Shown in pieces: positions 2,980 through 33,551 of a stretch of DNA of 33,551 bases (within the stretch, counting starts at the first letter, position 1; the number at the start of each line of letters is the position of its first letter). The notes under the pieces are model-generated. The model worked only from the letters and a program-made list of their open reading frames with translations, had not been told where the DNA came from and did not search any database. The stretch comes from a virus: positions 1 through 33,551 of the IMG/VR virus record IMGVR_UViG_3300020156_000067, one strand, 5' to 3'. The position numbers and the translations under genes were made by a program.

Positions 2980-3480
2980 TTACTTCGCGACAGCGGCGAC
3001 GAGCAGCGTCTCGCCGAGCGGGATAGCGACCTGCGGGTGATCGCCGATTGCTTCAATGATCGCTTTGGACTCGGCCGCGGTGCCCGAGTGGACCGTGACC
3101 TTTGAGCCGCTCGGGATCGTGAGCGTCGGCGGGACATAGTCGTCCGGCAGCTTCGGAGAGAGTCCGCCGGGCGCGCTCGGCGGACCGCCGCGGCTGGTCG
3201 TGCTCACCTCGTTCGAGTAGCCGCTCGCGCCGTTGGCGTTGTAGGCGCGGACGCGGAAACGATATGTCGTCGCGTTGGCGAGCGTGGTGTCCTTGTACGT
3301 CGTGACGTTGGCGGCGACGACCGCGATCGTCGCGAAGGTGCCGGCGCCGGTCGCACGCTCGATCTCGAAGCCGGCCTCATCGTTGGAATTGTCATTCCAG
3401 GCGAGCGTCACTTCGGCGGCGTGGGAGAAAGCGGCAGCGACGAGCGCGACCGCGAGGAGGATTGTTTTTGTGGTTCGCAT
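2980..3480 (-). CDS. Secreted protein with one fibronectin type III domain
   Basis: The N-terminus is a typical signal peptide (MRTTKTILLAVALVAAAFSH, with cleavage likely after Ala-Ala at about 21-22). A single FN3-like beta-sandwich follows at about 23-97. It has the expected Trp in strand B (VTLAWNDNSNDEAGFEIER) and the Tyr/Arg motif in strands F-G (TYRFRVRAYNANGASGYSNE). A proline-rich linker and a C-terminal region of about 65 residues come next. An ATG further upstream is in frame, but this start puts the signal peptide at the N-terminus. Export of an early phage product is unusual. It may act in the periplasm or at the cell surface, for example in receptor blocking, but this is inference. 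Confidence 0.75.
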   Translation of the reverse strand: MRTTKTILLAVALVAAAFSHAAEVTLAWNDNSNDEAGFEIERATGAGTFATIAVVAANVTTYKDTTLANATTYRFRVRAYNANGASGYSNEVSTTSRGGPPSAPGGLSPKLPDDYVPPTLTIPSGSKVTVHSGTAAESKAIIEAIGDHPQVAIPLGETLLVAAVAK

Positions 3481-3491
3481 GGCGAAAGGGT

Positions 3492-3935
3492 TCAGGCGGC
3501 AGAGAGCCGGTGCTTGGCGAGCGAGCGGGCGCATTCGGACTGCAGCGACAGAACCAGGTCTCTAAACGCTCGGTCTGTCTCGCAGCGGTCCGTGATTCTT
3601 TGCAGCGCGGAACGGGCACTGCCGGACGAGTGGCGAAACAGGCGATCTAACTGCGCGGGGCTGAAGCCGCAGAGCACGTGGCAAATGTACGCCGCGACGG
3701 AGCGCGCATCGACGGCCTCTTGCGGTCGGCTCTTTGAATAAACGACATCAACAGCGACGCCGAAGTGATGGCAGACGATTTCCGCGACGGTCGTCACAGC
3801 GGGAGGAACCGCAGCGTTGCGCCGGCCCTGCGCGAGTTCTACCAGGACGCGGACCTCGTCGAGGGCGGCGCGGTATTCACGCTCGGCACGAGCCAGCCGC
3901 GCGGTCGCGCGGGCAAAACGTTCGGAGAGGGTCAT
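3492..3935 (-). CDS. DnaA domain IV-like DNA-binding protein
   Basis: This 147-residue protein has an N-terminal coiled-coil-like helix (about 5-35). Residues 48-135 then follow the pattern of the DnaA C-terminal DNA-binding domain: a first helix ending in a YSKSR motif (66-70), where DnaA has DL-x-SKSR. After that comes an acidic/Arg turn and a helix AAYICHVLCGFSPAQLDRLF, matching the DnaA basic-loop helices. The DnaA signature G-x-x-DHSTV is replaced by SSGSARSAL, so specific DnaA-box recognition is doubtful. There is no AAA+ domain. It could act on DNA during phage replication or on host initiation. The start was chosen because the ATG at 3935 overlaps the upstream TGA. Confidence 0.7.
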   Translation of the reverse strand: MTLSERFARATARLARAEREYRAALDEVRVLVELAQGRRNAAVPPAVTTVAEIVCHHFGVAVDVVYSKSRPQEAVDARSVAAYICHVLCGFSPAQLDRLFRHSSGSARSALQRITDRCETDRAFRDLVLSLQSECARSLAKHRLSAA

Positions 3936-6397: not shown

Positions 6398-6651
6398 CGG
6401 CGGGCCTCTTTCTCGCGCTCGATCACAGCCTCGATCTCGGCCGTGAGCTGGTCCAGGTGATCGCGGGCGCAACTGATCGCTTCGAGCGCGCTGCCGAGGT
6501 TCGCAACGACCTCGCCGGAGCGCATGGCCGGAGTTGCTTTGCGGTCGTCCTGCCACTCCATCGCGGCCCGAACGTGCTCGGTCGAGGTGCCGATCTCGAC
6601 GATCGCGTCGAGCGCGCGGCTTTTGAAGGCGAGGTTGTCGCTCGCTTTCAT
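6394..6651 (-). CDS. Small helical protein, 85 aa
   Basis: The product is helical and acidic to neutral, with a C-terminal coiled-coil-like helix (DHLDQLTAEIEAVIEREKEA). No family is recognised and there is no membrane segment. The ATG overlaps the upstream TGA, and an excellent ribosome-binding site (CCAGGAGGAC) lies inside the end of the upstream gene. It is probably well translated. Confidence 0.6.
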   Translation of the reverse strand: MKASDNLAFKSRALDAIVEIGTSTEHVRAAMEWQDDRKATPAMRSGEVVANLGSALEAISCARDHLDQLTAEIEAVIEREKEARR

Positions 6652-6866: not shown

Positions 6867-7078
6867 GACTCGTCCTCCTGGTCGCGAGATCCGGCGACGG
6901 CCTTGAGGTCGTGCTGGTGATCGCGCTCGGCCCGGTAGAGCTGCGACGCGGCCCAGAAGAGCAGCGCGGCAAAGACGAATGAGGCGATGCCGTGGGCCGT
7001 GGCGTCGTCCTGGAAATGCAGACCGCCGATCACCAGGACCGCGAGGCCGCCGAGGCGGAGAAAAATCCGGGCGATCAT
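6863..7078 (-). CDS. Small membrane protein, first of a tandem pair, 71 aa
   Basis: Two hydrophobic helices are visible (FLRLGGLAVLVIGGLHFQ at about 6-23 and ASFVFAALLFWAASQLYRA at about 32-50), followed by a charged tail ending RDQEDES. It is the paralogue of the next gene downstream. The ATG overlaps the MuB stop. The end of the MuB gene supplies a strong Shine-Dalgarno (AAGGAGGAGGG) 7 bp before this start. The role is unknown; two-helix membrane proteins near the transposition genes could act in exclusion or in tying replication to the membrane. Confidence 0.65.
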   Translation of the reverse strand: MIARIFLRLGGLAVLVIGGLHFQDDATAHGIASFVFAALLFWAASQLYRAERDHQHDLKAVAGSRDQEDES

Positions 7079-8181
7079 CGTTTGCCCTCCTCCTTGGCGG
7101 CGAACACTTGCTCACCCATCATCTGCCGACGCAGTGCAAGGGCCTTGAACACGTGCTCCTCGCTGAGCTCCTGGCGCTGCTTGCTCGCGATGCGAGTCGC
7201 GACCTTGAGCACCTCGACTAGGACGCGCACGCGGCCCATCGCGTTGACGATCGAGGCGGCCTCGCCCTTCAGCTTAGCCGAGGGCTTGCGGATGTACTGC
7301 TGCAGGACGGGCATGAAGTCGCCCTCCTTGAGCTCGCGAGGCAGGCGGACCGGCATGCCGATCCGGCCGAGCACCTGCTCGAATTGGTACTCCGATTTCT
7401 GGAGACTGTCGGAAAAGCGCTGCGTCGAGATGAAAGCCAGGGCGCAGCCGGTCTGGTCGTGCAGGTCGCGGAGGATCTCCAGGTTGACCGGGTTGCTCCG
7501 GCGGTCGGTCGGCAGCAGCCGGTGCGCCTCGTCGACCAGGAGGATCCGGTTTTCGTTGAAGGCACGATATACGGCCTCGGTCATCTGCGGCAGATTGAGG
7601 TTTTTGTTCACGCCGACCGCAGCGGCGATGGCGCGCAGCAGGGCCTTGATCCCGCCGATCGGAGGCGCGACGACGTAGACGCTGCGGCCGTGGTTGTGCG
7701 CATCGCGCCAGGCCTTGGTCGCGATCGACTTACCCTGGCCGCTCTCGCCCGTGATCTGGGTGATCGAGTTGTTGGCGACCGCGTAGTCTAGCGCCGCCCA
7801 GATCATGCGCGAAACGGAGTTGTGAACGAACTCGACCTTTTGGATCGTGCCGCGCTCGGCGAGGAGTCGGCGATAGGACGCAATGGCCGATTCGATGTTC
7901 TGCCAGTTGCCAGTGTAGGTGCCTTTCAGGACACGGAACACGGTTGACTGGTCGTAGTTGAGAGCGGTCGCGGCGTCCTTCAGCGAGAGCCGCTGGTCGA
8001 GGCAGTGCTGGTGAAACCAGAGTAGAGCGTCCTGCGTTTCCTGCGGGAGCGTGCGCCAGTTCTCCAGGTTCAGCGGGATATTGATCCGCGCTCCGGCGCT
8101 CGACGCCAGGGCGGCCTCCGAGCGGGTGACGATTGCGGTCGATTCCTGGGTTGCCTTGACTTGTGTATCTGACGTGACCAT
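7075..8181 (-). CDS. MuB/ExeA-like AAA+ ATPase, transposition target activator
   Basis: This 368-residue protein has an N-terminal helix-turn-helix at about 70-95 (LSLKDAATALNYDQSTVFRV). An AAA+ core follows with Walker A at 145-152 (GESGQGKS) and Walker B at about 213-218 (ILLVDE, Asp217 and Glu218). In Mu, MuB forms ATP-dependent filaments on target DNA, delivers it to the transposase and gives target immunity. MuB is 312 residues; this protein is longer at the N-terminus and also resembles ExeA-like AAA+ proteins found beside phage transposases. The start at 8181 has a good ribosome-binding site (AAAGGA, 5 bp upstream). It lies just downstream of the transposase gene. Confidence 0.9.
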   Translation of the reverse strand: MVTSDTQVKATQESTAIVTRSEAALASSAGARINIPLNLENWRTLPQETQDALLWFHQHCLDQRLSLKDAATALNYDQSTVFRVLKGTYTGNWQNIESAIASYRRLLAERGTIQKVEFVHNSVSRMIWAALDYAVANNSITQITGESGQGKSIATKAWRDAHNHGRSVYVVAPPIGGIKALLRAIAAAVGVNKNLNLPQMTEAVYRAFNENRILLVDEAHRLLPTDRRSNPVNLEILRDLHDQTGCALAFISTQRFSDSLQKSEYQFEQVLGRIGMPVRLPRELKEGDFMPVLQQYIRKPSAKLKGEAASIVNAMGRVRVLVEVLKVATRIASKQRQELSEEHVFKALALRRQMMGEQVFAAKEEGKR

Positions 8182-8241: not shown

Positions 8242-10452
8242 TCACTGAGGGTCGTCGGAGAGGAGATCGGTGATCTCGTCCGCTGAGAATTGGGGCGCCT
8301 CGTCGGCGCTCGGCGCCGCGCCGGTCGCGGCGGCGATGTCCTCGGGCGATAGCTGAGCGGCGGCCTGGGCGATAGCCCGGCGCGACGCTACCTCCTGGAG
8401 GCGCTGCGCGTGTTTCTTGTCGGCCGCTGCAGCCATGCTGCGCGCCGTTTGCATGCCGAGTGCAGTCTCGGGTTGACCGCCGTTCGGGAGCGGGCGGTTG
8501 AGCGCAGCCGTGAGCGCGAGCTCCTGCTTGGCGGCTTCGGCGTTGCGCGCCGCGTCCAGGGCGAGCTGCGCGTCCGTCGCCTGGTGCAGCGGCCGGGAGC
8601 GGACCTCCTCGCGGAGTCCGTTGAAGATCGCGGCCAGATCGCGCTCGGCGCCGTTGATCGCGTCCTGGTCGCTGATGTCGACAGGGCCGAGGCGCTTGAT
8701 CTCGCCGATATAGCGCCCGTCAACGTGGCACACGTGAGCGCTCGCGGCGTCGCACGGGTCGAAGTAGACGAGGAGCTCGGTGCCCTCGGGCACGTTGAGC
8801 ACGGGCGAGCCATGCTCGGCGAAGGTGTAGGGCTTGCCGGCGTGATCGAACGTGAGCTTTTGGCTCTTGAGCTTCGCCTTTTTCGGCGTGAGGCAGAGCA
8901 TCATCAGCGCGGCCGGATCGACCGCTTGGCAGTGCACCTGCGGCATGAGCGCATTCCAGCGCTCGCGCGGGCTCTGCTTACGGCGGCGCAGCTCGCAGCG
9001 CAGCTGCTCGGCTTCGGTGAGCTGGCCGATCTCGGAGAGCGGGCGCCAGATCCCGGCGCCGTCGTCCGGCCGACGCCACTCAACGACGTCGTCAAAGCCG
9101 ATCATTGCGTGATCGGTGCGGAGCTCGACCAGATCGAAAACCGCGTTGTATTTCTCGATCAGCACGTCGGCGCTGTCGAACGGGACGGCGTACTGCTTGA
9201 GCCGCTCGATCGCGGCGATCGGATCGCGCGGGCCGGAGTTGATGAGCTGCAGCGTCTGCCGTTGCTTCTCCTCCAGGGTGCCGGGTTTCTCGATATAGTT
9301 GCGCCCCTTGTAGCCGGGGAAGGTCGCGGCGACATTCCAGGCGAGATTGAACAGACTCTCGATCCAGCCCTTTTGCTGCGGCTTGCCGCCGCGCTCAATG
9401 AAGCCGTTGGAGAACGCCTTGTCGGCGATCATGCCCGTCCGCGTGACCGCGACCCGGCCGCCGAATAGATTGGAGAACGTCGTCTTGAGCTCGTTCGTCA
9501 CGGCTGCGGCGGCATTCTCGCAGAGGATCGTCATGCCATGCGCGGGCACGCCGTAGCCGCGCAGGATCTCGAAGAGCACGAGCCGGACCTCGGCGCGGGT
9601 GATCGACTGCTCGGCGCCGTTGGCTTTGGGCAGGCGCGGCTTCATGAGGAGGCCGATCACCTTGCGCGTCGCGACATCCATCGCGGCGATGCCTGACACC
9701 TTGCAGAGGTGCGGGCCGGTCGCCGGATCGTTGAACACGCAAAGATGGTCGATTTCAAAGTCGTCGATCGTGATCAGCTGCAGCGGGAGCAGACCCGACG
9801 TGTCGCGGATCATGCTCGGGAGGTGCGCCCGCATGGCGGCAAAGCCTCGCGTGGCCAGGGCGCGGGCCGCTTTCTTCGGCTGGATCGCGTAGAGTGTGGA
9901 GTCGCTCCAGCCCTCGGGGTAACGGTCGATAAACGCGGGCGCCTCCTGGTCGGGAAAGTTCGCGAAGAACCAATCACGCCAGGTGCCGTAGCCGGGGATC
10001 GAGACGCCGCTGATCCATTGCCGGCGCAGGAGGTTGATTGCCTGCTTCATCGACCGCGGGTTCTGCTCCATGAGGGCGCGCACGTACTGCACGAACTCGG
10101 GCGGAAGCTTCGCCTTGCCGTTCGTGTAGCCGCGACGCAGCGCCTGCCAGCCGCAGGCGCGCCACTCGCGATGCAGGCGCTGCAAGTTCTCGCTACTGAA
10201 GCCGCGCACGTGGCGCAGCGTGAAAGCGAGCCGATCGGCCGCCGCGACCAACCCGGCCGGGTCGGTGTCCATCTGCTCGAACGCCGCGAGGAGCATGAGC
10301 ACGCGCTCGCGCTCCTTTTGCTTCAGATCGCGAAACGCGCCCATGTCGTCCTGCGGGATCGCATACCGGCCAGCCGACTGCGGGAAACCGAGGAGCGGCG
10401 CGGTCGAGACGGTCGTGAGAGCGGTCGATGTAGCGGGGGCGAGCTCGTGCAT
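8242..10452 (-). CDS. MuA-like DDE transposase
   Basis: This 736-residue protein (MuA is 663) carries out strand transfer of the phage ends. An N-terminal helical DNA-binding region (about 1-215) precedes an RNase H-like core. The first acidic cluster is LITIDDFEID (Asp230/231/235). The second catalytic position lies in TILCENAAAA, where Glu312 stands instead of the usual Asp. The third is Glu365 in KGWIESLFN. The 53-residue spacing from the second to the third is close to that of MuA (Asp336 to Glu392). A MuA-type beta-barrel region follows at about 450-620, then an Ala/Gln-rich tail that probably contacts MuB. No good ribosome-binding site is seen before the ATG. Confidence 0.9.
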   Translation of the reverse strand: MHELAPATSTALTTVSTAPLLGFPQSAGRYAIPQDDMGAFRDLKQKERERVLMLLAAFEQMDTDPAGLVAAADRLAFTLRHVRGFSSENLQRLHREWRACGWQALRRGYTNGKAKLPPEFVQYVRALMEQNPRSMKQAINLLRRQWISGVSIPGYGTWRDWFFANFPDQEAPAFIDRYPEGWSDSTLYAIQPKKAARALATRGFAAMRAHLPSMIRDTSGLLPLQLITIDDFEIDHLCVFNDPATGPHLCKVSGIAAMDVATRKVIGLLMKPRLPKANGAEQSITRAEVRLVLFEILRGYGVPAHGMTILCENAAAAVTNELKTTFSNLFGGRVAVTRTGMIADKAFSNGFIERGGKPQQKGWIESLFNLAWNVAATFPGYKGRNYIEKPGTLEEKQRQTLQLINSGPRDPIAAIERLKQYAVPFDSADVLIEKYNAVFDLVELRTDHAMIGFDDVVEWRRPDDGAGIWRPLSEIGQLTEAEQLRCELRRRKQSPRERWNALMPQVHCQAVDPAALMMLCLTPKKAKLKSQKLTFDHAGKPYTFAEHGSPVLNVPEGTELLVYFDPCDAASAHVCHVDGRYIGEIKRLGPVDISDQDAINGAERDLAAIFNGLREEVRSRPLHQATDAQLALDAARNAEAAKQELALTAALNRPLPNGGQPETALGMQTARSMAAAADKKHAQRLQEVASRRAIAQAAAQLSPEDIAAATGAAPSADEAPQFSADEITDLLSDDPQ

Positions 10453-14752: not shown

Positions 14753-15393
14753 ATCCGACGCTCGCGCCTCGCTCCGTCTGGATCTGCGTCAACGGCATCC
14801 ATGCGAACCCCGGCGACTCCGACGGCTGGACCGATCGCGCCGTGACCTGGCTGCACCTGCACACAGATACGCGCGCTGAGAAGTGGGAATACGCTGCGAG
14901 CTGGCTCACGCGCCGCCTGCATCAGCAGGCCCGAGCCGAGGCCATCGCGACAATGGTCCGCTTCTACGCGGACCAGGGATTCAAGATCGCTTTCCTCGCG
15001 CACAGCAACGGCGCCGACCTTTTCGAGCGGGTGCTCAAGCTGATTGCCCCGATCAAGATCGAGGCGGCGCACCTGATCGCGCCGGCCTGCAAGGGCGAGA
15101 CCCTGGAAGCGGCGCTCGAAGTGAAGCAGCTCGGCTGGCTGCACCTCTATGGCTCGCCGAACGATTCGGCGATGAAGCTCGCGAAGCTCTCGCAGCAGCT
15201 CGTCGGCTGGGCCGGCCTGGGCTACGGTGATCTTGGCGGGCGTGTATCCGACTTTGCGACACACGCGCCGCGGACGACGGCTTACGTCGACGAGACAGAG
15301 ACGCACTCCTCCTGGTTCCAGCGTGGCGACTCCTTCGAGCGCACGATGCGGCTCGTCGCCCGTGACATTATCCAACCCTCGCCCGTCGCATGA
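14749..15393 (+). CDS. Alpha/beta hydrolase in the lysis position
   Basis: This 214-residue protein starts at the GTG overlapping the previous stop. It has the alpha/beta hydrolase order: an oxyanion strand (VWICVNGIHANPG), a nucleophile elbow LAHSNGADL with Ser86, and an acid after strand 7 in YGSPNDS (Asp139). A late His follows (His186 in DETETHSSW), completing a plausible Ser-Asp-His triad. The elbow is H-S-N-G, a variant of G-x-S-x-G. Mu-like phages usually carry a lysozyme here, but none is seen. It could be an esterase attacking the envelope, like LysB of mycobacteriophages in principle, though sequence relation to LysB is not claimed. It lies directly before the lipoprotein gene. Confidence 0.75.
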   Translation: MNPTLAPRSVWICVNGIHANPGDSDGWTDRAVTWLHLHTDTRAEKWEYAASWLTRRLHQQARAEAIATMVRFYADQGFKIAFLAHSNGADLFERVLKLIAPIKIEAAHLIAPACKGETLEAALEVKQLGWLHLYGSPNDSAMKLAKLSQQLVGWAGLGYGDLGGRVSDFATHAPRTTAYVDETETHSSWFQRGDSFERTMRLVARDIIQPSPVA

Positions 15394-15794
15394 AAACTGT
15401 GATCGCCCGCTACTGCCTCGCCGCGCTGATCGTCGCGTTTGTCTCCCTCCTCGCCAGCCTGTTCTCCGGCTGCAGCTCGTTCGGCCGCGTTGCGAACAGC
15501 CCGGCCGAGACGATCGAGGCTGCGACGACGAAGGTCGCGCTGCCGCTCGCTGACGGTCGCGAGCTCTCGGTCGAGTTTCCAAAGGAACTCGACGCGACCG
15601 GGCTTGAGCTGGTCGTCGATCTGAAGAACCAGACCGCGACACTCAAAGCCAAGCGGATCAAGAGCTCCAGCCAGGCGCTCGTCGAGAGCGTGAGCTCCGC
15701 CCAGGCGGAAGCGCTGGCGGAACAAGCCGAGGCGAACGGCAAGCTCGCTGACGCATTCACCCAAACGCTCGGGCTCCTCAAGCCGACTCCGTAA
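15390..15794 (+). CDS. Lipoprotein, possible spanin-like component
   Basis: This 134-residue protein has a lipoprotein signal: a basic start (MKTVIARYC), a hydrophobic helix and the lipobox LFSGC, with the lipidated Cys at about 28. The mature part has a short beta-rich region (VALPLADGRELSVEF) and a C-terminal helix rich in Ala, Glu and Gln. It would be anchored in the outer or inner membrane on the periplasmic side. In this place it may replace the outer-membrane spanin. It is coupled by ATGA to the hydrolase. Confidence 0.65.
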   Translation: MKTVIARYCLAALIVAFVSLLASLFSGCSSFGRVANSPAETIEAATTKVALPLADGRELSVEFPKELDATGLELVVDLKNQTATLKAKRIKSSSQALVESVSSAQAEALAEQAEANGKLADAFTQTLGLLKPTP

Positions 15795-22290: not shown

Positions 22291-22794
22291 ATGAACATTC
22301 TGTTTATCGTTCTCTCTCTCGCCGCCATGCTGGGCCTCGTCGCCCTGCATGCTCGCGGCTTCATCCGCACTCCGCGGATCCTCCGGCTCGCCAATATCGG
22401 CGAGGGCACACACTGCGGCAGCATCAGCAAGAAAGCCGACGCGGCCATCGCGACGCGCAATCTCCTGGTGAAGTTCGGCAGCGATGGCGATCACGTCGCC
22501 GCCTGCGGTGCAAACGACATCCCGCTCGGCCCGGTCGATGATGAAGCCGAGGCCGCGGAGGATTTCATCAACGTCCGCCTGCTCGGCGTCGACGGCATGA
22601 CCCAGCTCATGGTCGCGAGTGAGGCGATCACCGCTGGCGAGGCTGTGTTCACCGCGGCCAACGGCAAGGTGCAGGACCTGCCAGGCGGTGCGGGCACGTA
22701 CTACCAAGTCGGCTACGCGCTCACTGCAGCCGGCGCCGATGGCGATGTGATCGAGGTGCAACACTGCGCCCCGATCAAGACCGTCGTCTCGTAA
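22291..22794 (+). CDS. DUF2190-like capsid decoration protein with N-terminal hydrophobic helix
   Basis: This 167-residue protein has a core (from about 45) of the short beta-strand type seen in DUF2190 head-decoration proteins: an opening around ATRNLLVKFGSDGDHVAACG, then IPLGPVDDEAEAAEDFINVR, LMVASEAITAGEAVFTAANG and YYQVGYALTAAGADGDVIEV. The N-terminus is unusual: a hydrophobic helix MNILFIVLSLAAMLGLVALH resembling a signal or anchor, then PRILRLAN (28-35), the same octapeptide as in the protease/scaffold. No later ATG gives a whole core, so this start is kept. Confidence 0.7.
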   Translation: MNILFIVLSLAAMLGLVALHARGFIRTPRILRLANIGEGTHCGSISKKADAAIATRNLLVKFGSDGDHVAACGANDIPLGPVDDEAEAAEDFINVRLLGVDGMTQLMVASEAITAGEAVFTAANGKVQDLPGGAGTYYQVGYALTAAGADGDVIEVQHCAPIKTVVS

Positions 22795-25848: not shown

Positions 25849-26555
25849 TCGGCTACGCGATCAACGTGAGCAACACGGCCGGACCGGCGCTCAAGGCGCT
25901 CGGCAACGTGCTGCGCCCGCAGCAGCTGAGGCCGATCGTCGGCCGCTCGGCGCGCAATGCTTTCGTCGCTCACTTCCGCGCGAAGAACACGCGCTCACCG
26001 AATCGCTTCGGCGCACGGCGGACGAACTACTACCTCGGCGCCGCGCGTGCGACATCGTTTCAACCGGTGGGCGATGGCGTCGTGATCTCGGTCGCGCAGA
26101 TCGGGATCCGCCTGCACTACTACGGCGGCACGGTCCGCGCCGGCCGCGGCATCTCGTCGTTCAGCGGCAAGCCGACAAAGTTCCTCACGATCCCGGCACG
26201 GGCCGAGGCGCACGGCAAACGCGCAAGCGAGTTTCCCGATCTGATCGTCCTCCGCCGCGGCGATCACCAGTTCGGCGAGCCGTATGCGCTCGCGCGCAAG
26301 GTGACGCAGTCGGTCAAGCACGTGACGACGAAGCGTCTCGGCCGCACGAGCCGCGAGGACTACGAGTCGGCCACGATGGTCACGAGCTACACGGGCGGCG
26401 AGATCCTGTTCTGGCTCAAGCGCGAGGTGCGCGTGCCTGCGGATCCCGACATCCTGCCGCAGCCGCTCGACATCGGCGCGGCGATTTTCTCCGACGTGAA
26501 CAAGGCGATCGACCTCGCCTGGCAGCGGAAGAACGGAGGCGCACCCAATGCCTGA
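25845..26555 (+). CDS. Virion morphogenesis protein, Mu gpG-like
   Basis: It is 236 residues with a GTG start overlapping the upstream TGA and a GGAGG ribosome-binding site. It contains a basic N-terminal part with ARNAFVAHFRAKNTRSPNRF and a beta-rich centre (GVVISVAQIGIRLHYYGGTV). The phrase KFLTIPARAEAHGKRASEF resembles the phage_tail_S/gpG family, with R-x-F-L-x-x-P-x. gpG-type proteins act in tail completion or head-tail joining. The C-terminal third contains a helical end rich in Asp and Ala. Confidence 0.75.
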   Translation: MIGYAINVSNTAGPALKALGNVLRPQQLRPIVGRSARNAFVAHFRAKNTRSPNRFGARRTNYYLGAARATSFQPVGDGVVISVAQIGIRLHYYGGTVRAGRGISSFSGKPTKFLTIPARAEAHGKRASEFPDLIVLRRGDHQFGEPYALARKVTQSVKHVTTKRLGRTSREDYESATMVTSYTGGEILFWLKREVRVPADPDILPQPLDIGAAIFSDVNKAIDLAWQRKNGGAPNA

Positions 26556-27252
26556 CCCGATCGAGCAAGATCAAGACGACATCGTCGGCCGGCTCCAGGC
26601 CGACAGCGAACTCGCGCTCGTGGCGATCCTGGAGCAGCGCCGCGGGGTCGCCGAGAGCGACGTGCAAAGCGCCGTCTCGATCGGCAACAAGCGAGCCGGC
26701 GGCAAGCGCGGGCTGGTGCTGATCGTGCTCATGCCAGAGCTCACGCCGAGCGAGGCGGACGCACCTGGTCCGGAGTACACGCTGCGCTATGGCGTGCAGG
26801 CGATCGAGCATCCGATCCTCAACCGCGGCACGCACGGCAGCGGGATCTCGGCCGAGGCCGCGATGCGCCGCGTGCGGCAGCTGCTGCATCGCTTCGAGCG
26901 CGAAGGGCGCACGCTCAGCTTTGGCGGAATGGAGCCGGTCCCGGTCGCGGAGGGCATGATCAGTTACATCGCCAATTTCACGGCGCGCGACATGGACGAG
27001 CCGAGCAATCGAGTCGGCCTGCCGCTCATCGACCCAGAGGAGGGCGAGGCTCCGCTAGAGGTGACGATCACCTGCGGCACGCCGACCGCCGCGATCTACA
27101 CGACGACGGACGGCAGCTATCCCTCCAGCGCCAACCCGGCCGCCGTCCTCTACTCGGGACCGTTCACCGTCGCGAGCGCGTGCAAGCTCCGGGCGGCAGC
27201 CGAGCTCGCCGGCCTGCAGCAGAGCAACGTCGCCGAGGCCATTTTCAGCTAA
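26548..27252 (+). CDS. Tail terminator-like protein with a chitobiase-type C-terminal domain
   Basis: The N-terminal two thirds (about 1-160) follow the pattern of phage tail terminator or completion proteins: an opening acidic helix with QADSELALVAILEQRRGVAE, strands GLVLIVLMPEL and YTLRYGVQAIEHPILNRG, and a helix in AAMRRVRQLLHRFEREG. The last 65 residues (from about 168) are a separate beta domain with IYTTTDGSYPS and YSGPFTVASACKLRAAA, the signature of the chitobiase/beta-hexosaminidase C-terminal FN3-like domain. That domain may stick to sugars or decorate the tail. It overlaps the gpG-like gene by 8 bp. Confidence 0.7.
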   Translation: MPDPIEQDQDDIVGRLQADSELALVAILEQRRGVAESDVQSAVSIGNKRAGGKRGLVLIVLMPELTPSEADAPGPEYTLRYGVQAIEHPILNRGTHGSGISAEAAMRRVRQLLHRFEREGRTLSFGGMEPVPVAEGMISYIANFTARDMDEPSNRVGLPLIDPEEGEAPLEVTITCGTPTAAIYTTTDGSYPSSANPAAVLYSGPFTVASACKLRAAAELAGLQQSNVAEAIFS

Positions 27253-27273
27253 CTCGCCAACCCATCGCCCGAC

Positions 27274-28452
27274 ATGAATCTCGCCAAACTCCTCGAAGGC
27301 CCGGCCATCGTGACGCACCGCGGCCAACTCTTCCATTCCCGCGGCGGTGCCGTGCTCAACCCGGAGGCGTCCGCGTTTCCGATCGAGACCGACATCCTCG
27401 GTCCCATCGACCAGCGGCACCTCGACAACTCGATCGCGCTCACGCTGACGCCGGTCGGCGTCTGGACCGATCCCGTCCTGGGCGTGCTCTATCGCTGGCA
27501 AAATCCCTCGATCGGCCAGTTGGTGACGCCGGTCTACGACGTCGACACGATCGACACCGAAGCGGACACGATCGAGCTCGTCGGCAGCGAGGGTCCGCGC
27601 AAGGGCTGCCCGATCAACGTCGCGAGCTTCGGCACAATGCCGACCGGCCTCGCCGAGGCGACGCTCTACTATGCGGGCGTGCCGAGTGACGCCGCGCCGA
27701 ATGTGATCTCGCTGCACGCGACTGAAGCGCACGCGCTCGCCGGGACCAACCTGATTGACCTCACCGACGACGGCGACGGTGATCACACGATCATTGAGCA
27801 GGAGCCGCTCATCATTCACACGACGCGCAACCGCAAGATCGTGTTCCACAACGCCGCGGTCGTCGGCATGCCAGCGATCAACTTTTCCGCTCAGCAGACG
27901 CTCCTCGGCCAGGTCGTGTTCGAGTGCTTCCGCAAAAACAACGCGGCCTGGAGCACGGCCAACTCACTTTTCACGATCACCAAGGAGGCGCTCTCGATCA
28001 CGGCGCCGGATCCCGACGACATCCCAACGCAGGAGTACAGCTTCGCGTGGGGCGCGTCGCCCTGGAACAGCTGGAAAACGCGCGGCGCGTTCGTCATAAG
28101 TCCTCAGCTGCAGCTCGCAGCAATCGAGAGCGACGCTCGCGGCACGCTGGGCCGAAAGATCCAGGGCATCAGTGTCACGGCGCAGGGCGCACCGCACGGC
28201 TTCAGCGAACAGCAGATGCTCGACGTGCTCGGGCTCCAGGGCGGCACGGCCGCGCGTGGCGTGAGCCGAGCTCGCGCCGACCTCACGATCACCGGGACAG
28301 ACGTGCATTGCATCATGCGCGGAGCGTCGGCCCAGGCGCTGCCGCAGACCTTCAGCGCCACGGATCCGCGCGCAGGCGAGATCCGATTCGTCGGCAGTCG
28401 CGGGCCGGATGCCGATGATGCGTTCTACGTCGGCACCGCTGCTCCGGCCTGA
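27274..28452 (+). CDS. Tail tube (major tail) protein candidate
   Basis: This 392-residue beta-rich protein follows the tail terminator, as major tail proteins do. Visible parts are an opening with GPAIVTHRGQLFHSRGGAVL, long strand regions, WGASPWNSWKTRGAFVISPQ and the ending IRFVGSRGPDADDAFYVGTA. No known family is clear. If this is a tube protein it is large; siphophage tube proteins are often 150-250 residues, so an extra domain may be present. No sheath gene of the gpL type is seen beside it, so a non-contractile tail is likely. Confidence 0.6.
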   Translation: MNLAKLLEGPAIVTHRGQLFHSRGGAVLNPEASAFPIETDILGPIDQRHLDNSIALTLTPVGVWTDPVLGVLYRWQNPSIGQLVTPVYDVDTIDTEADTIELVGSEGPRKGCPINVASFGTMPTGLAEATLYYAGVPSDAAPNVISLHATEAHALAGTNLIDLTDDGDGDHTIIEQEPLIIHTTRNRKIVFHNAAVVGMPAINFSAQQTLLGQVVFECFRKNNAAWSTANSLFTITKEALSITAPDPDDIPTQEYSFAWGASPWNSWKTRGAFVISPQLQLAAIESDARGTLGRKIQGISVTAQGAPHGFSEQQMLDVLGLQGGTAARGVSRARADLTITGTDVHCIMRGASAQALPQTFSATDPRAGEIRFVGSRGPDADDAFYVGTAAPA

Positions 28453-28464
28453 GCCTGACCAAGT

Positions 28465-29124
28465 GTGCGCATCCAATACGCCACCTCTTGGTTCGCTGCA
28501 GGCGGCCTCCTCGGAGAGCCGGTCGGCATGGTCTGCAACGGGCAGCAAGTCACCGACGCTGCGGGATTCTTCCGCGCGGCCGCGGAGACGTTCTTCGCGC
28601 GCGGCCAGCGCCGGACGGAGCTCACGTTCGCGGTGCAGCGCACGTTCGGCTCGCTGCGCCGCGCGCAAGCGTTCGCGCTCGTGCACTTCAACGATCTCCC
28701 CAACCGGGGCGACCTGGTCGTCACGTGCGGCGAAGGCGCCGACGTGCAAGCAGTCGTCCTGGAGGACGCCGTCCTGGACTCCGTCACCGTCGAAGAACTA
28801 CGCGGCTCAAGTGTGCGCGTGCGTTATCGGCTGCTCGGCGGTGCCTGGTCGACGGACGTCACACCCGGAGAGGAGCCGGATGAGGACGTGATCCGCCGCG
28901 ACACAGTAGCAATCGCCGAGGATGCGACGGAGGTCGCGGTCGAGTTCGGGACGCCGATGAGCGGGACGCCGACCGTCGTCGCCTCGATCCTCGCGCCCGA
29001 CGGCGCCGACATCATCTCGTGCCAGATCGAGGCGGGCTCCGTCACTGCCTCGGGCTTCACAGCCAAGCTCAGTTTCCCGGCGCCGAGCGCCCTCTACGAA
29101 CTCTCCTATATCGCCATCGCCTAG
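28465..29124 (+). CDS. Tail-region protein, unknown, with possible fibre-like C-terminus
   Basis: It has 219 residues from GTG 28465 (a GTG 2 bp upstream is out of frame). The N-terminal part contains a helix with GFFRAAAETFFARGQRRTEL and strands (QAFALVHFNDLPNRGDLVVT). The C-terminal part (from about 135) is a separate beta unit (DTVAIAEDATEVAVEFGTPM, then GTPTVVASILAPDGADIISC) like the small beta domains at the ends of tail proteins, with a T-A-S-G-F-T pattern. It is placed between the tube candidate and the secreted fibre. Confidence 0.6.
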   Translation: MRIQYATSWFAAGGLLGEPVGMVCNGQQVTDAAGFFRAAAETFFARGQRRTELTFAVQRTFGSLRRAQAFALVHFNDLPNRGDLVVTCGEGADVQAVVLEDAVLDSVTVEELRGSSVRVRYRLLGGAWSTDVTPGEEPDEDVIRRDTVAIAEDATEVAVEFGTPMSGTPTVVASILAPDGADIISCQIEAGSVTASGFTAKLSFPAPSALYELSYIAIA

Positions 29125-29127
29125 CGC

Positions 29128-30369
29128 ATGAACACACGCCTTGCACTGCTCCTGCTCTGCCTTTGCAGCACGCTTGCTGCGCAGACGACGGCGATCAAAA
29201 ACGCGCGGCTCACCGGAAACCTCGAAGCGAAGAGCGGCGCCGTCGTGCAGATCGAGTCCGGCGCGACGCTGCAGGTCGAAGTCGGCGGGCTGTTCGACTT
29301 CGATCAGCCGTTGTCGCTCGCGGCCGGCGGCTTGGGCGTGGGGCTCGCGGATCCTGGCGGCGATCGGATCGTTTTCTGGGACGAGTCGGGCAACGTCGTC
29401 GGCTGGCTCACGATCGGCGACGGGCTCCAGATCGTCGGGACGACGCTCAGCTCAACGGCTGAAGCATTCGAGAACCCGATGACGACGCTCGGCGACCTGA
29501 TCGTCGGCGGCGCGAGCGGTGCACTAGGGCGGCTCGGAGTTGGGAGCAATGGGCAGGTGCTTTCGGTCGTGAGCGGTGCGCCGGCCTGGGCGGCAGCCTT
29601 CTCGAATCCAATGACGACGGCCGGCGATCTGATCGTCGGCGGCACGAGCGGCGCTCCTGGTCGGCTCGGCATCGGCACCGACGGGCAAGTGCTCAAGGTC
29701 TCCGGCGGCGCTGTCGCCTGGGGCTCTGATTCGACGGGCGCGGGTTCGCTGCCGGCGACTCCTGAAGCGGGCGACATGAGCTATTTCGACGGGACCGACT
29801 GGATCGAGCTCGACATCGGAACCGCTGGACAGGTGCTGAAGGTGAACAGCGGCGCGACGGCGCCCGAGTGGGGCGTCGCCGCCGCGTCCGGCACCAAGAC
29901 CCTCGTCCAATGGACGCCGCTCGGCAACCAACCGCCGGCCTCGAACTACGCGACCTTCGCGACCCGCAACTCGATTGCCGTCCTGGTTTTCAACGCCTCG
30001 ACGGCGCAGTCGGCGAACTTTGTCGGCTGGATTCCAGAAGGCGCGAGCCTCGGCTCTGGCGTGCAGGTGCGGATCGCCTGGATCACGACAAGCTCGACGA
30101 CCGGCGACTGTGTCTGGCGTGCGTCGATCGAGCGCGGTCTGACCGACCTCGACTCCGACAGCTTCGCGACTGCCGTCGACGTGACGACGGCCGCGAGCGC
30201 GACGAGCGGCATCCCGATCACCTCCGCAATCAGCCTCGATTCATCGGCCGAGATGGACAGCGTCGCGGCTGGCGATTTCTTCCGGCTGCGAATCACCCGG
30301 CAAGCGGCCGACGGCGCCGATACGACGGGCGAGGTCCAGCTGCTGGCCGTCGAGCTCCGCTCCCTCTGA
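29128..30369 (+). CDS. Repeat-containing tail fibre protein with signal peptide
   Basis: This 413-residue protein begins with a signal peptide (MNTRLALLLLCLCSTLAAQ, with cleavage after about residue 18). A beta-rich stem then runs to about residue 110. Two 44-residue repeats start at residues 116 and 160 (NPMTTLGDLIVGG, then GRLGVGSNGQVLSVVSG), with a degenerate third (GTAGQVLKVNSGATAPEWG). The unit N-P-M-T-T-x-G-D-L-I is common in phage fibre and neck proteins. The C-terminal half (from about 255) is a globular beta domain that might bind the host. Three bases separate it from the upstream gene. Confidence 0.75.
   Translation: MNTRLALLLLCLCSTLAAQTTAIKNARLTGNLEAKSGAVVQIESGATLQVEVGGLFDFDQPLSLAAGGLGVGLADPGGDRIVFWDESGNVVGWLTIGDGLQIVGTTLSSTAEAFENPMTTLGDLIVGGASGALGRLGVGSNGQVLSVVSGAPAWAAAFSNPMTTAGDLIVGGTSGAPGRLGIGTDGQVLKVSGGAVAWGSDSTGAGSLPATPEAGDMSYFDGTDWIELDIGTAGQVLKVNSGATAPEWGVAAASGTKTLVQWTPLGNQPPASNYATFATRNSIAVLVFNASTAQSANFVGWIPEGASLGSGVQVRIAWITTSSTTGDCVWRASIERGLTDLDSDSFATAVDVTTAASATSGIPITSAISLDSSAEMDSVAAGDFFRLRITRQAADGADTTGEVQLLAVELRSL
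29473..29736 (+). repeat. Two tandem 132-bp fibre repeats
   Basis: Units 29473-29604 and 29605-29736 encode the 44-residue repeats starting NPMTTLG and NPMTTAG. They keep the GDLIVGG, GRLG and GQVL positions, while silent sites differ. A third unit after 29736 has only the GQVLKV part. Repeat number may vary between related phages. Confidence 0.75.
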
Positions 30370-30372
30370 GCC

Positions 30373-31080
30373 ATGAAGTTCCTCGCGCTCCTCCTCGCTC
30401 TCGCGCTGCCGCTGCAGGCAGCCCGCAACTTCAACGGCACGAGCGACCGTATCGACTTCGCGACGACGCCGACCCGCACGGCGTTCTCGTTTTCCGCGTG
30501 GGTGCGGACGACCAGTTCCTCGACGAGCGCCAACTGGTACGTGATGTGTGTGCATATCACAGGCAACACCAACGTCGGCGCTCTCCTGCGCCTAGGTGCC
30601 TCCCGTCGGCTGGAGTTCGGAACTGTCTTCGCGTCCGACCCTAACACCCTCTCGATCCGAGCGACCCAAGCGACTCTTTCAACCAACACACTCTACCATG
30701 TCGCGGTGATCTACGACGGAGGCAATGCGAGCGGGATCAGGATGTTCATCAATGGGGTGGAGGGGGCCTACACCTCGACGAGTGCCGACACGACTCTCGG
30801 CGCATGGGGCGGCACGTTGAGCGTCGGCGGTCGCATCTTCGACGATACCCGAAACTGGCCGGGCTACATCGACCTGCCCGCCGCGTGGAATATCCAACTC
30901 ACCGAAGCGGACGTCGCGGCGCTCGCGGCTGGAGCGCACCCGGCAATGATTCGCCCAGAGGCTTTGATCTTTGCCTCTGACCTGGGCGCGACTGTGCGAG
31001 AGGACATCGCGGGCGGGACAGTCACAAGTGACGGCACGACGCTCGCCGAGCACGTGCGGCACTACCGAGCCGCACGATGA
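30373..31080 (+). CDS. LamG/concanavalin-A-like lectin domain protein with signal peptide
   Basis: This 235-residue protein starts with a signal peptide (MKFLALLLALALPLQAA, with cleavage at about 17). A LamG-type jelly roll follows at about 18-180 with the usual motif order: FNGTSDRIDF, then FSFSAWVRTTSSS, LYHVAVIYDGGNASGIRMFI and NGVEGAY, and WPGYIDLPAAWNIQLTEADV. This fold binds sugars or proteins, so receptor binding is plausible. The C-terminus is short and polar. The stop overlaps the tape measure start. Confidence 0.8.
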   Translation: MKFLALLLALALPLQAARNFNGTSDRIDFATTPTRTAFSFSAWVRTTSSSTSANWYVMCVHITGNTNVGALLRLGASRRLEFGTVFASDPNTLSIRATQATLSTNTLYHVAVIYDGGNASGIRMFINGVEGAYTSTSADTTLGAWGGTLSVGGRIFDDTRNWPGYIDLPAAWNIQLTEADVAALAAGAHPAMIRPEALIFASDLGATVREDIAGGTVTSDGTTLAEHVRHYRAAR

Positions 31081-32558
31081 ACGGGCAGACTCCTCGCCTC
31101 GACGTCCATATCCGCACGCAGGCCGACACGGCCGGCGCGCAACAGGCGGAGCGCGCGCTCGACGGCGTCAACAAAGCCGCGACCCGTTCGGCGAAGGACG
31201 CGCAGCAAGCGGCGCGGGGCGTCAATGAGCTCGGCGAGAACTTCGAGAAGGGCGCAGCGGCCGGTCGGATCTTGGGACAGGCGCTCTCGGGCAACCTGCT
31301 GGCGCTGACGCAGCTCGCGCCCGCGATCAAGGTCATCTCGACCTTGATGAAAACGAGCCTCATCGGCGCGGTGGTAGCGCTCGGGGCTGCTGCCGCGCAG
31401 ATCGTGGTGCCGTTCGTGTCGGGGTTTAAAAAGAAGCGCGAGGCGATCGAGAGCGCGACGAGCTCGCTCGACACGCTCAAGCTCAAGCTCGGCGAGGTCG
31501 AGGATGAGGCCAAACGCAGCCTTGATGCCCAGATCGCCAAGGTCGTGGCGCTGCGGGAGTCATACTCCGGGCTTGTGAGCGACATCGACAAAGCGGAGCA
31601 ACGGATCGCAAAAGCAAACGAGCTGGAGGTCCGTCGACAAAAGGCGCAGCTCGATCTCCAGGAACAGCAGGCGCTCGCCGTCGCGAAAACGGACGAGGAG
31701 CGCGCGCAGATCTCGGCCGGGTTTAACCGGCGGCGCGAGCTGCTGGGTGACGATGCGGCTCAACTAACTCTGGAAAACCAGCTGCTCAACGCTGGCGTGC
31801 GCGAGGACGCTGCACGCCAAGCGCAGAGCGTCGCCGCCGCGCGGATCCGCGAGGCGCAAGGCATCGCTGCCGAGCGGACACGTGAACGCGGCGTCGCCGA
31901 CTCCGCGTTTCAAGCGGCGATGCGGGATCTCGGCGCCAACCTCGCCGAGCGGCAGAAGCTCGGCGACAGCCTGCGGACCAAGGAGCAGGCCGCGCGCGCG
32001 GCGGAGCTCGAAAACGAGCGCGCTGGCCTGGAAAGCCGGGCGAACGAGGCCAGCCAGCAGCGGACCGTCGCCATCGCGGCCGAGGAGGCCGCGCTGGACA
32101 ATGTGCGGACAGTCACGATCGAGGCGAACCAGGTGATCAGCAGCGCGCAGCAGCAGATCGACCAGGTCGCCGCGACGCGGACGAGCGTGCCGATCGAGCA
32201 GGAGATCCTCGGGACGCAGCGTGCGGCTCGGGAGGTCGGCTTATCCGCTGCGAGCGCCGCTCAGGCGCGGCAACTCAGGGAGCAGGCTCAGGCCGCAATG
32301 GAGGCTGGAGACTTCGCTGCGCAAGATCGCGCTGTCGCCGGGCTCCGCGCGCTGGGTAATCAGCCAGCGGCTCGCGGGGTCACGCCGGGCGAAGGCGACA
32401 CGCGCGGCGTTCAGCAGGCGGCGAAGCAGCAAGGCGAGGCGCTCGCTGAGCAGGGTCGCCTCATCATCGAAGGCTTTAACGGGACGACGCAGATCATCAA
32501 AAACACGAATCGCGAGCTGCAGAAGCAGCAGACAGCCGCGAAGAACTCCCGGCCATGA
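31077..32558 (+). CDS. Short tail tape measure protein
   Basis: This 493-residue, largely helical protein starts with a sequence typical of tape measure proteins (RLDVHIRTQADTAGAQQAER, then ALDGVNKAATRS). A hydrophobic stretch lies at about 86-120 (MKTSLIGAVVALGAAAAQIV). Long coiled coils follow (for example RRQKAQLDLQEQQALAVAKT and ELENERAGLESRANEASQQR). Tape measure proteins set tail length at about 0.15 nm per residue, so this one would give a short tail of roughly 70 nm. It lies immediately before a hub-like gene, as in siphophages. Confidence 0.7.
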   Translation: MNGQTPRLDVHIRTQADTAGAQQAERALDGVNKAATRSAKDAQQAARGVNELGENFEKGAAAGRILGQALSGNLLALTQLAPAIKVISTLMKTSLIGAVVALGAAAAQIVVPFVSGFKKKREAIESATSSLDTLKLKLGEVEDEAKRSLDAQIAKVVALRESYSGLVSDIDKAEQRIAKANELEVRRQKAQLDLQEQQALAVAKTDEERAQISAGFNRRRELLGDDAAQLTLENQLLNAGVREDAARQAQSVAAARIREAQGIAAERTRERGVADSAFQAAMRDLGANLAERQKLGDSLRTKEQAARAAELENERAGLESRANEASQQRTVAIAAEEAALDNVRTVTIEANQVISSAQQQIDQVAATRTSVPIEQEILGTQRAAREVGLSAASAAQARQLREQAQAAMEAGDFAAQDRAVAGLRALGNQPAARGVTPGEGDTRGVQQAAKQQGEALAEQGRLIIEGFNGTTQIIKNTNRELQKQQTAAKNSRP

Positions 32559-33551
32559 GTGCGACCTGGACGATCACAGCGCCGGGAGGCACTCGGACGC
32601 TCGCCGGCTGGGGGATCTCGCCCGCGATCCTGACGCGCCGATCGTTCGCGGCCGATACCCTGGAGCTTACGGTCGCCAAGGAGGACGCGCTCGCGGCGCC
32701 GACGTTCAGCTATGGGCAGGCGATCACACTTAAGCGCGACGGCGTGCCCGTGTTCATCGGCAAGATCATCCGGGAGCAGGCCCTCGGCGGGGCGGCAAAG
32801 GAGGCACACGGCTACGTCGCCGCGAATGCCTGGCACGATCTGGAGCGCCTCGTCTATCAACAGCCGCACTGTCTCGCCAACGGGACCTTTGCCGGGTTCG
32901 TCGAGACGATGATGCCGCTCGCGGTGCTGGGGCAGACCGATCTCGGCGGCTCGTACCTCACGACGACGGCGCAGATGCAGGCGGTCGTCGCTTACGCGCT
33001 CACCAAGGGCGTCGAGCTGCTCGACGGAGGACTCGTCGGCGGCGTGCCATTTGCCCGCGAAGAGGTGCAAAGCCTCACGTGCGCGGAGATCCTCCGCCGG
33101 CTCGGAGCACTGACTCCCGACGCGGCCATGTGGATTGAGTACGGGACCGGCGCCCAGGTGCTGCGCTTTGCGCGCCGCGACGATCTGACGGCCGTCGGCT
33201 ACAGCCTCACGGCGGGAAACGCGATCGTGAGCTGGCGTTGCGAGAAGCGCGCCGACCTGGTGCCGAGCGGCGTCCGCTTCATTTTTCGGACTGCCGAGGT
33301 CAACTCGGGCGGGGACGAGCCGGAGAACGCGGACGGTCGCGTCTACACACGCGCGACCGTGCAGGAGGCGGGCTTGCCCGATCTGCCGGGCGGCCTGATC
33401 GCCGCGATCGAGCAGCACGGCGTCGGCACCGCGGCGGAGGCTCCGATCCCTGGCAACCTGGCGGCCGAATATTACCTCTCGCTGCTGACGCCTCACTACG
33501 AGGGGCAGCTTGTGACCAGGGGTGAGGACGTGCGCGGGGATCTCCTGGTCG
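32555..33551 (+). CDS. Tail hub-like protein, partial (cut by the right edge)
   Basis: An ATG at 32555, overlapping the TGA of the tape measure gene, opens a frame that stays open for 332 codons to the edge. The N-terminal part is a beta domain (WTITAPGGTRTLAGWGISPA, then SFAADTLELTVAKEDAL, PVFIGKIIREQAL) like the tail hub proteins of siphophages, where the first domain binds the tape measure end. A later part contains TCAEILRRLGALTPDAAMWI and YGTGAQVLRFARRDDLTAVG. The C-terminus is not in the window. It probably connects the tube to the fibres. Confidence 0.65.
   Translation, partial: MSATWTITAPGGTRTLAGWGISPAILTRRSFAADTLELTVAKEDALAAPTFSYGQAITLKRDGVPVFIGKIIREQALGGAAKEAHGYVAANAWHDLERLVYQQPHCLANGTFAGFVETMMPLAVLGQTDLGGSYLTTTAQMQAVVAYALTKGVELLDGGLVGGVPFAREEVQSLTCAEILRRLGALTPDAAMWIEYGTGAQVLRFARRDDLTAVGYSLTAGNAIVSWRCEKRADLVPSGVRFIFRTAEVNSGGDEPENADGRVYTRATVQEAGLPDLPGGLIAAIEQHGVGTAAEAPIPGNLAAEYYLSLLTPHYEGQLVTRGEDVRGDLLV

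Follow-up and report, generated by a model that had tools for sequence, protein, structure and literature searches.

Particles of tailed phages are taken to assemble in the cytosol, and fibres can join finished particles late, as illustrated by in vitro complementation in T4 and P22. In JBD30, a phage with a comparable gene arrangement, the fibre genes gp47 and gp48 come later in the numbering than the tape measure, gp46 (PMC11445458). The nearest cases of signal-bearing phage proteins described in the open-licence papers searched are Lom of phage lambda and exported endolysins. The gene for Lom, a protein of the outer membrane, lies between those for the tail spike and the tail fibre (PMC12309495), and Lys44, the endolysin of Oenococcus phage fOg44, is exported through Sec and accumulates without its signal until lysis (PMC6116005). 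Here we describe two adjacent genes, A and B, whose products combine predicted export signals with fibre and lectin features. They lie in a stretch of 33,551 bases (the window), an IMG/VR record from environmental DNA that is classed as linear.

Materials and Methods

Signals were called with a rule-based detector of our own. Its calibration set was 104 annotated genes of E. coli K-12, where it called 23 of the 27 exported, one of the 57 cytosolic and two of the 20 inner-membrane proteins. Applied to ATG stretches read out of frame in the window, it called 2/140. The lipobox criterion was [LVI][ASTG][GAS]C. Calls discarded as artefacts were those from internal starts in L007, L012 and L077, those on the Ala-rich terminases of L084 and L087, and one at 7240 in L084. 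The clade of related contigs (L081, L082, L083, L084, L086 and L087) was found through the clade-defining tail protein, with 35-60% identity. A second set held fibre-repeat genes, 130 after deduplication, drawn from the clade and from viral contigs unrelated to it.

Results

Judged by its gene content, the window phage is a Mu-like transposable tailed phage, since it carries a Mu-type portal (Table 1), a terminase gene found in profile searches, and a MuB-type ATPase ORF (7075-8181) with matches to proteins that are annotated in Mu-like phages as acting in DNA transposition. MuB-type matches also occur in four related contigs. A MuA transposase with a DDE core was looked for in the 736-aa ORF 8242-10452, which gave a weak HTH match only. 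The right end of the window falls inside the gene 3' of the tape measure. GTDB genomes were scanned with the portal and then with the tail protein; neither scan returned relatives that would point to a host.

Table 1. Positions of the features discussed, in the window unless a contig is named.
Feature	Location	Strand	Remark
Early FN3 protein	2980..3480	-	signal MRTTKTILLAVALVAAAFSHA; likely true start 3480
Tail protein, clade-defining	27274..28452	+	signal absent; common to all seven contigs
Upstream neighbour of A	28465..29124	+	signal absent; conserved anchor of the slot
Protein A, fibre protein	29128..30369	+	413 aa; N-terminal export signal (predicted)
Signal peptide of A	29128..29181	+	MNTRLALLLLCLCSTLAA; predicted cut near A17/A18, before Q19
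Fibre repeat of A	29473..29727	+	NPMTTxGDLIVGGxSGxxGRLGxGxxGQVL, two copies
C-terminal jelly-roll tip of A	29890..30363	+	carbohydrate-binding-module-like (predicted fold)
Protein B, LamG (concanavalin-A-like) protein	30373..31080	+	235 aa; N-terminal export signal (predicted)
Signal peptide of B	30373..30420	+	MKFLALLLALALPLQA; predicted cut after A16
LamG domain of B	30436..30918	+	PF13385, 1.9e-18
Tape-measure-type protein	31077..32558	+	signal absent
Portal, Mu-type	window		PF06074, 3e-52
Slot fibre with signal	L081, 12260		
Slot fibre with signal	L082, 11964		homologous to A residues 1-109, 39%
Slot fibre with signal	L083, 12257		
Slot fibre with signal	L084, 11916		
Slot fibre with signal	L086, 12011		GTG start
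Slot fibre with signal	L087, 11601		

An earlier note on this DNA had read export signals at the N-termini of A and B, and the calibrated detector bears this out, assigning both to the Sec/signal-peptidase-I type. Both N-termini (MNTRLALLLLCLCSTLAAQTTA in A, MKFLALLLALALPLQAARN in B) show a positive n-region, a long hydrophobic core and an AxA-type cleavage site. The starts are secure, because the next in-frame ATG lies only at codon 118 in A and at codon 58 in B. The AlphaFold model of A has a helix at 2-22, over the signal peptide, and neither protein has a later transmembrane segment. B is also without a lipobox. A lipoprotein (SPase II) reading of A was rejected, as LLLC and LCLC have no G/A/S at -1, and so was a Tat reading of A and B, in which the twin arginine is absent. 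The sites are AxA-type, and 15 of 44 listed proteins have A then Q, a pattern that favours cleaved signals over plain membrane anchors.

The same note had labelled A a fibre-repeat protein, a label now backed by a match of the repeat to the tail fiber family PHROG 9851 (3.6e-8), a partial match that covers the repeat only. Relatives of A are encoded in 164 viral stretches, mostly recognized via this repeat, and a search of 50,697 phage records with A gave zero matches. Residues 261-413 are modelled by AlphaFold with pLDDT mostly 70-88. In Foldseek this tip resembles CBM15, CBM36 and a Bacteroides CBM, with target-normalised TM values of 0.65-0.68 at 5-9% sequence identity, and its likeness to carbohydrate-binding modules is one of modelled fold only. 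The tip is also found in other phages as stand-alone 165-residue proteins without signals (L007, L012, L019). With family-shared repeats, a beta-rich tip and a location in the tail operon, A has the make-up of a tail fibre, and its membership of the virion is a prediction. For B, the LamG label holds, with PF13385 (Laminin_G_3) scoring 67.5 bits against a curated cut-off of 27.6; the call rests on Pfam since the AlphaFold model is poor (pLDDT 42). Searched alone, B had zero matches in IMG/VR and in the 50,697 phage records.

A starts 4 nt past the preceding stop and B 4 nt past the stop of A, while the tape-measure start overlaps the stop of B as ATGA (neighbour gaps of 3, 3 and -4 nt). Because of this tight coupling we place both genes in the late tail operon, and their position upstream of the tape-measure gene refines the earlier placement in the tail region. 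In the related contig L081, 15437-17293 matches PHROG tape measure. No promoter-like site was found in 26500-32600, and expression during lysogeny is unlikely because the genes stand in a tightly spaced late operon lacking such a site. A Lom-type lysogenic-conversion protein was rejected on the same ground and on the LamG and jelly-roll folds. The 28465 protein has a weak H-type lectin match at its C-terminus (PF09458, 2.3e-4, below cut-off). Further upstream, the tail-region protein at 26548-27252 ends in a chitobiase C-terminal/Fn3-associated domain (PF13290, 9e-10).

A third export signal had been proposed for the early FN3 protein. It is present, but only if translation of the ORF at 2980-3534 on the minus strand begins at an internal ATG, that of 3480. 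This ATG, 12 nt past the stop of the upstream gene, is likely the start of the protein. The FN3 gene belongs to a separate early module on the opposite strand, and its product need not share the function of A and B. Elsewhere in the window, a lysis-region protein (15390-15794) carries a lipoprotein-type export signal, and two small early membrane-type proteins, at 6648 and 6863, were also called by the detector.

The position of A is conserved. Directly 3' of the 28465-type gene, 7/7 contigs (window included) encode a signal-bearing long fibre-like protein. The L082 homologue of A keeps its signal despite differing letters. More signal-bearing genes run from the fibre up to the tape measure in L081 and L087, one further slot gene is signal-bearing in L086, and two are in L083 before that contig enters other genes. 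As in the window, the fibre of L087 is directly followed by a signal-bearing LamG protein (in L087 PF13385, 1.1e-30). L086 has a PHROG tail fiber match; the small proteins encoded in the slots of L081, L083, L087 and L086 are not obviously fibres. A LamG domain fused to the L084 fibre was dropped from consideration, being sub-threshold (18.3 bits) and absent in a repeat search.

Signals were found in 15/17 slot genes versus approximately 10/95 other late genes when the tape measure is left out. With the tape measure counted in the slot the figures are 15/18 and 10/94 (Fisher p 1.2e-9), a comparison to be interpreted with some caution since the contigs share ancestry and their independence is overstated. 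The mature parts of the slot proteins are mostly unrelated across the seven contigs, and the persistence of signals while fibres are exchanged is a stronger point than the p-value.

Several smaller features of the clade can be recorded. A small signal-bearing protein, related in two or three contigs, is encoded at L081 14980, L083 14579 and L087 17134; it has no family match, and in L081 and L087 it directly precedes the tape measure. In L082, three consecutive signal-bearing genes (7939, 8898 and 9377) lie between two tail genes; the last encodes an extra, predicted secreted-type protein (9377-9943) with no Pfam match. One of the three contains a DPDGDGLPNLMEYALD motif, known from exported proteins of Verrucomicrobiota and a possible lead to the host. 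Cassette gene starts in L081-L087 often have pyrimidine-rich leaders (e.g. tcctcccATG) and not Shine-Dalgarno sequences.

Among the 130 fibre-repeat genes, 23 were called and 107 had no signal. With clade members and internal-start artefacts removed, the proportion was 17/124 fibre genes versus 75/1551 others (4.8%; p = 2e-4). Genes adjoining signal-bearing fibres were themselves signal-bearing in 20/69 cases, compared with 13/275 for genes adjoining ordinary fibres, and runs of signal-bearing genes occur in phage contigs such as L055, L056, L064, L094, L109 and L131. PHROG tail fiber matches were obtained for signal-bearing L064, L094 and L109 (4.7e-40 for L109), and L131 has an endosialidase-chaperone domain. 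Three annotated phage records matched by the L109 and L131 fibres (L181-L183) have no tail-gene signals, which indicates that the trait is lineage-specific. The fibre signal trait is real and recurrent, yet absent from most fibres.

Signal-like N-termini also precede a predicted N-terminal coiled coil in the major capsid proteins of L087 (6187-7680) and L084 (5753-7129). These proteins are 59% identical and belong to phrog_10 (PF05065, 5.8e-23 for L087), and there is no alternative ATG near their starts. A scan of capsid proteins for further signal-bearing heads returned L084 and L087 only. A head-region protein of L087 has a signal-like N-terminus as well. The capsid protein of L081, too, has a hydrophobic N-terminus. 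A hydrophobic N-terminal helix is present in the Phage cement (PF09956) proteins of the window (22291-22794) and of L086 (4907-5860); in the window it was not scored as a cleavable signal, nor were signals called on any other head protein there.

Discussion

We tentatively favour the view that A and B are Sec-exported, cleaved and periplasmic, most likely joining virions at lysis as tail fibres, and hold it with somewhat less than even confidence. In its favour, the proteins apart from their signals match tail-fibre families of virions. On this view the two genes make up a fibre/lectin cassette in a Mu-like tailed phage; their products would enter the host Sec pathway late, and signal peptidase I would cut off the N-termini. 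Mature A, with its jelly-roll tip, and mature B, with its LamG domain, both putatively glycan-binding, would then gather in the periplasm until lysis frees them alongside fibre-less tails, to which they would most likely bind as tail fibres. That the proteins are exported, cleaved and, once the cell has lysed, attached to virions we infer from what sequence analysis provides, namely the signals and their calibration, the recurrence in the slot, the coupling to tail genes and the predicted glycan-binding folds.

Three observations speak against this view. One is that some small slot proteins do not look like clear fibres. Another is the 28465 protein: with its weak lectin match and no signal, it could bind receptors after assembly in the cytosol, in which case A and B may be dispensable in the virion. 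The third concerns the capsid, since an exported capsid protein could not package DNA, and consequently signal-like need not mean exported in this clade. Either the capsid segments tether the protein to a membrane and are cut off as the head matures, or a signal-like N-terminus does not always lead to export here; the anomaly lowers our confidence in a simple export reading. The capsid N-termini are the most unusual lead of this work and a testable oddity in their own right.

A serious rival, though less likely in our estimate, is that A and B act outside the particle as lectins exported late, binding host surface glycans or receptors and so blocking superinfection or keeping progeny from adhering to debris. 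Such a decoy or masking role is equally compatible with these data and would suit the textbook signals and the two predicted glycan-binding folds, and the other candidate virion lectin, the 28465 protein, is without a signal. Moreover, lom is a signal-bearing tail-region gene with a non-virion role (PMC12309495). However, the cassette is tightly coupled within the tail operon, its repeats and domains are shared with signal-less virion fibres of other phages, and A and B have no barrel or anchor, unlike Lom. Stable surface display, another option of the earlier note, finds no support in an anchor domain, and the sequence data fit both display with later joining and a decoy.

Membrane-docked assembly, in which the N-termini serve less for full export than to tether structural proteins at the inner membrane until a phage or host protease trims them, would accommodate the signal-like capsid N-termini of L084 and L087, the L087 head-region protein and the hydrophobic N-termini that the window and L086 have on their cement proteins. 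We regard it as improbable for A and B, which have standard AxA sites, and the head proteins of the window score no signal, 2/7 capsid proteins being the only cases.

Least probable is that these are idle remnants, pieces of secreted host proteins taken up along with signals that go unused: cells often secrete proteins with LamG or FN3 domains, and L082 encodes an extra secreted-type protein, but same-slot signals stand on mostly unrelated proteins in seven contigs, their n/h/c design is kept while the letters diverge, and a useless signal exporting a needed fibre should be lost. The capture of host domains suggested earlier is unlikely as a one-off, because signals recur in the slot on mostly unrelated mature parts, and independently in unrelated phages as well. 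With one-off capture and lysogenic expression both unlikely, export is left as a late event, and known phage biology permits each step of the reading we favour.

A wider proposition, that virion parts are routed through Sec in one lineage and independently in others, with periplasmic fibres and some capsids docked at the membrane, seems to us unlikely; if true, tailed-phage morphogenesis would not be purely cytosolic. If fibres do leave the cytosol and are joined on only at lysis, the order of assembly, the control of superinfection and inter-phage fibre exchange would have to be rethought. Should the exported fibres stay free, phages would secrete receptor-blocking lectins at scale.

The fibre-repeat tail proteins of other phages (Gordonia and Synechococcus phages; L002, L015, L029) share the repeat class or tip domain with A but differ from it in that most are without signals. 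JBD30, a Mu-like siphophage of Pseudomonas, resembles the window in having two adjacent fibre-type genes beside the tape measure; the window genes precede it, whereas those of JBD30 follow. The JBD30 paper does not use the term 'signal peptide' (PMC11445458). The open-licence papers searched, a set with subscription papers and preprints outside, do not describe tail-fibre cassettes that regularly carry signal peptides. Like A and B, Lom is the product of a phage gene with a signal peptide among tail genes (PMC12309495), but it is made by lysogens and forms a beta-barrel in the outer membrane, whereas A and B are a fibre and a lectin coupled to late tail genes. Lys44 shares with them a signal on a phage protein and offers a precedent for export before lysis (PMC6116005); it is a lysis enzyme, however, and neither a fibre nor a virion-type protein.
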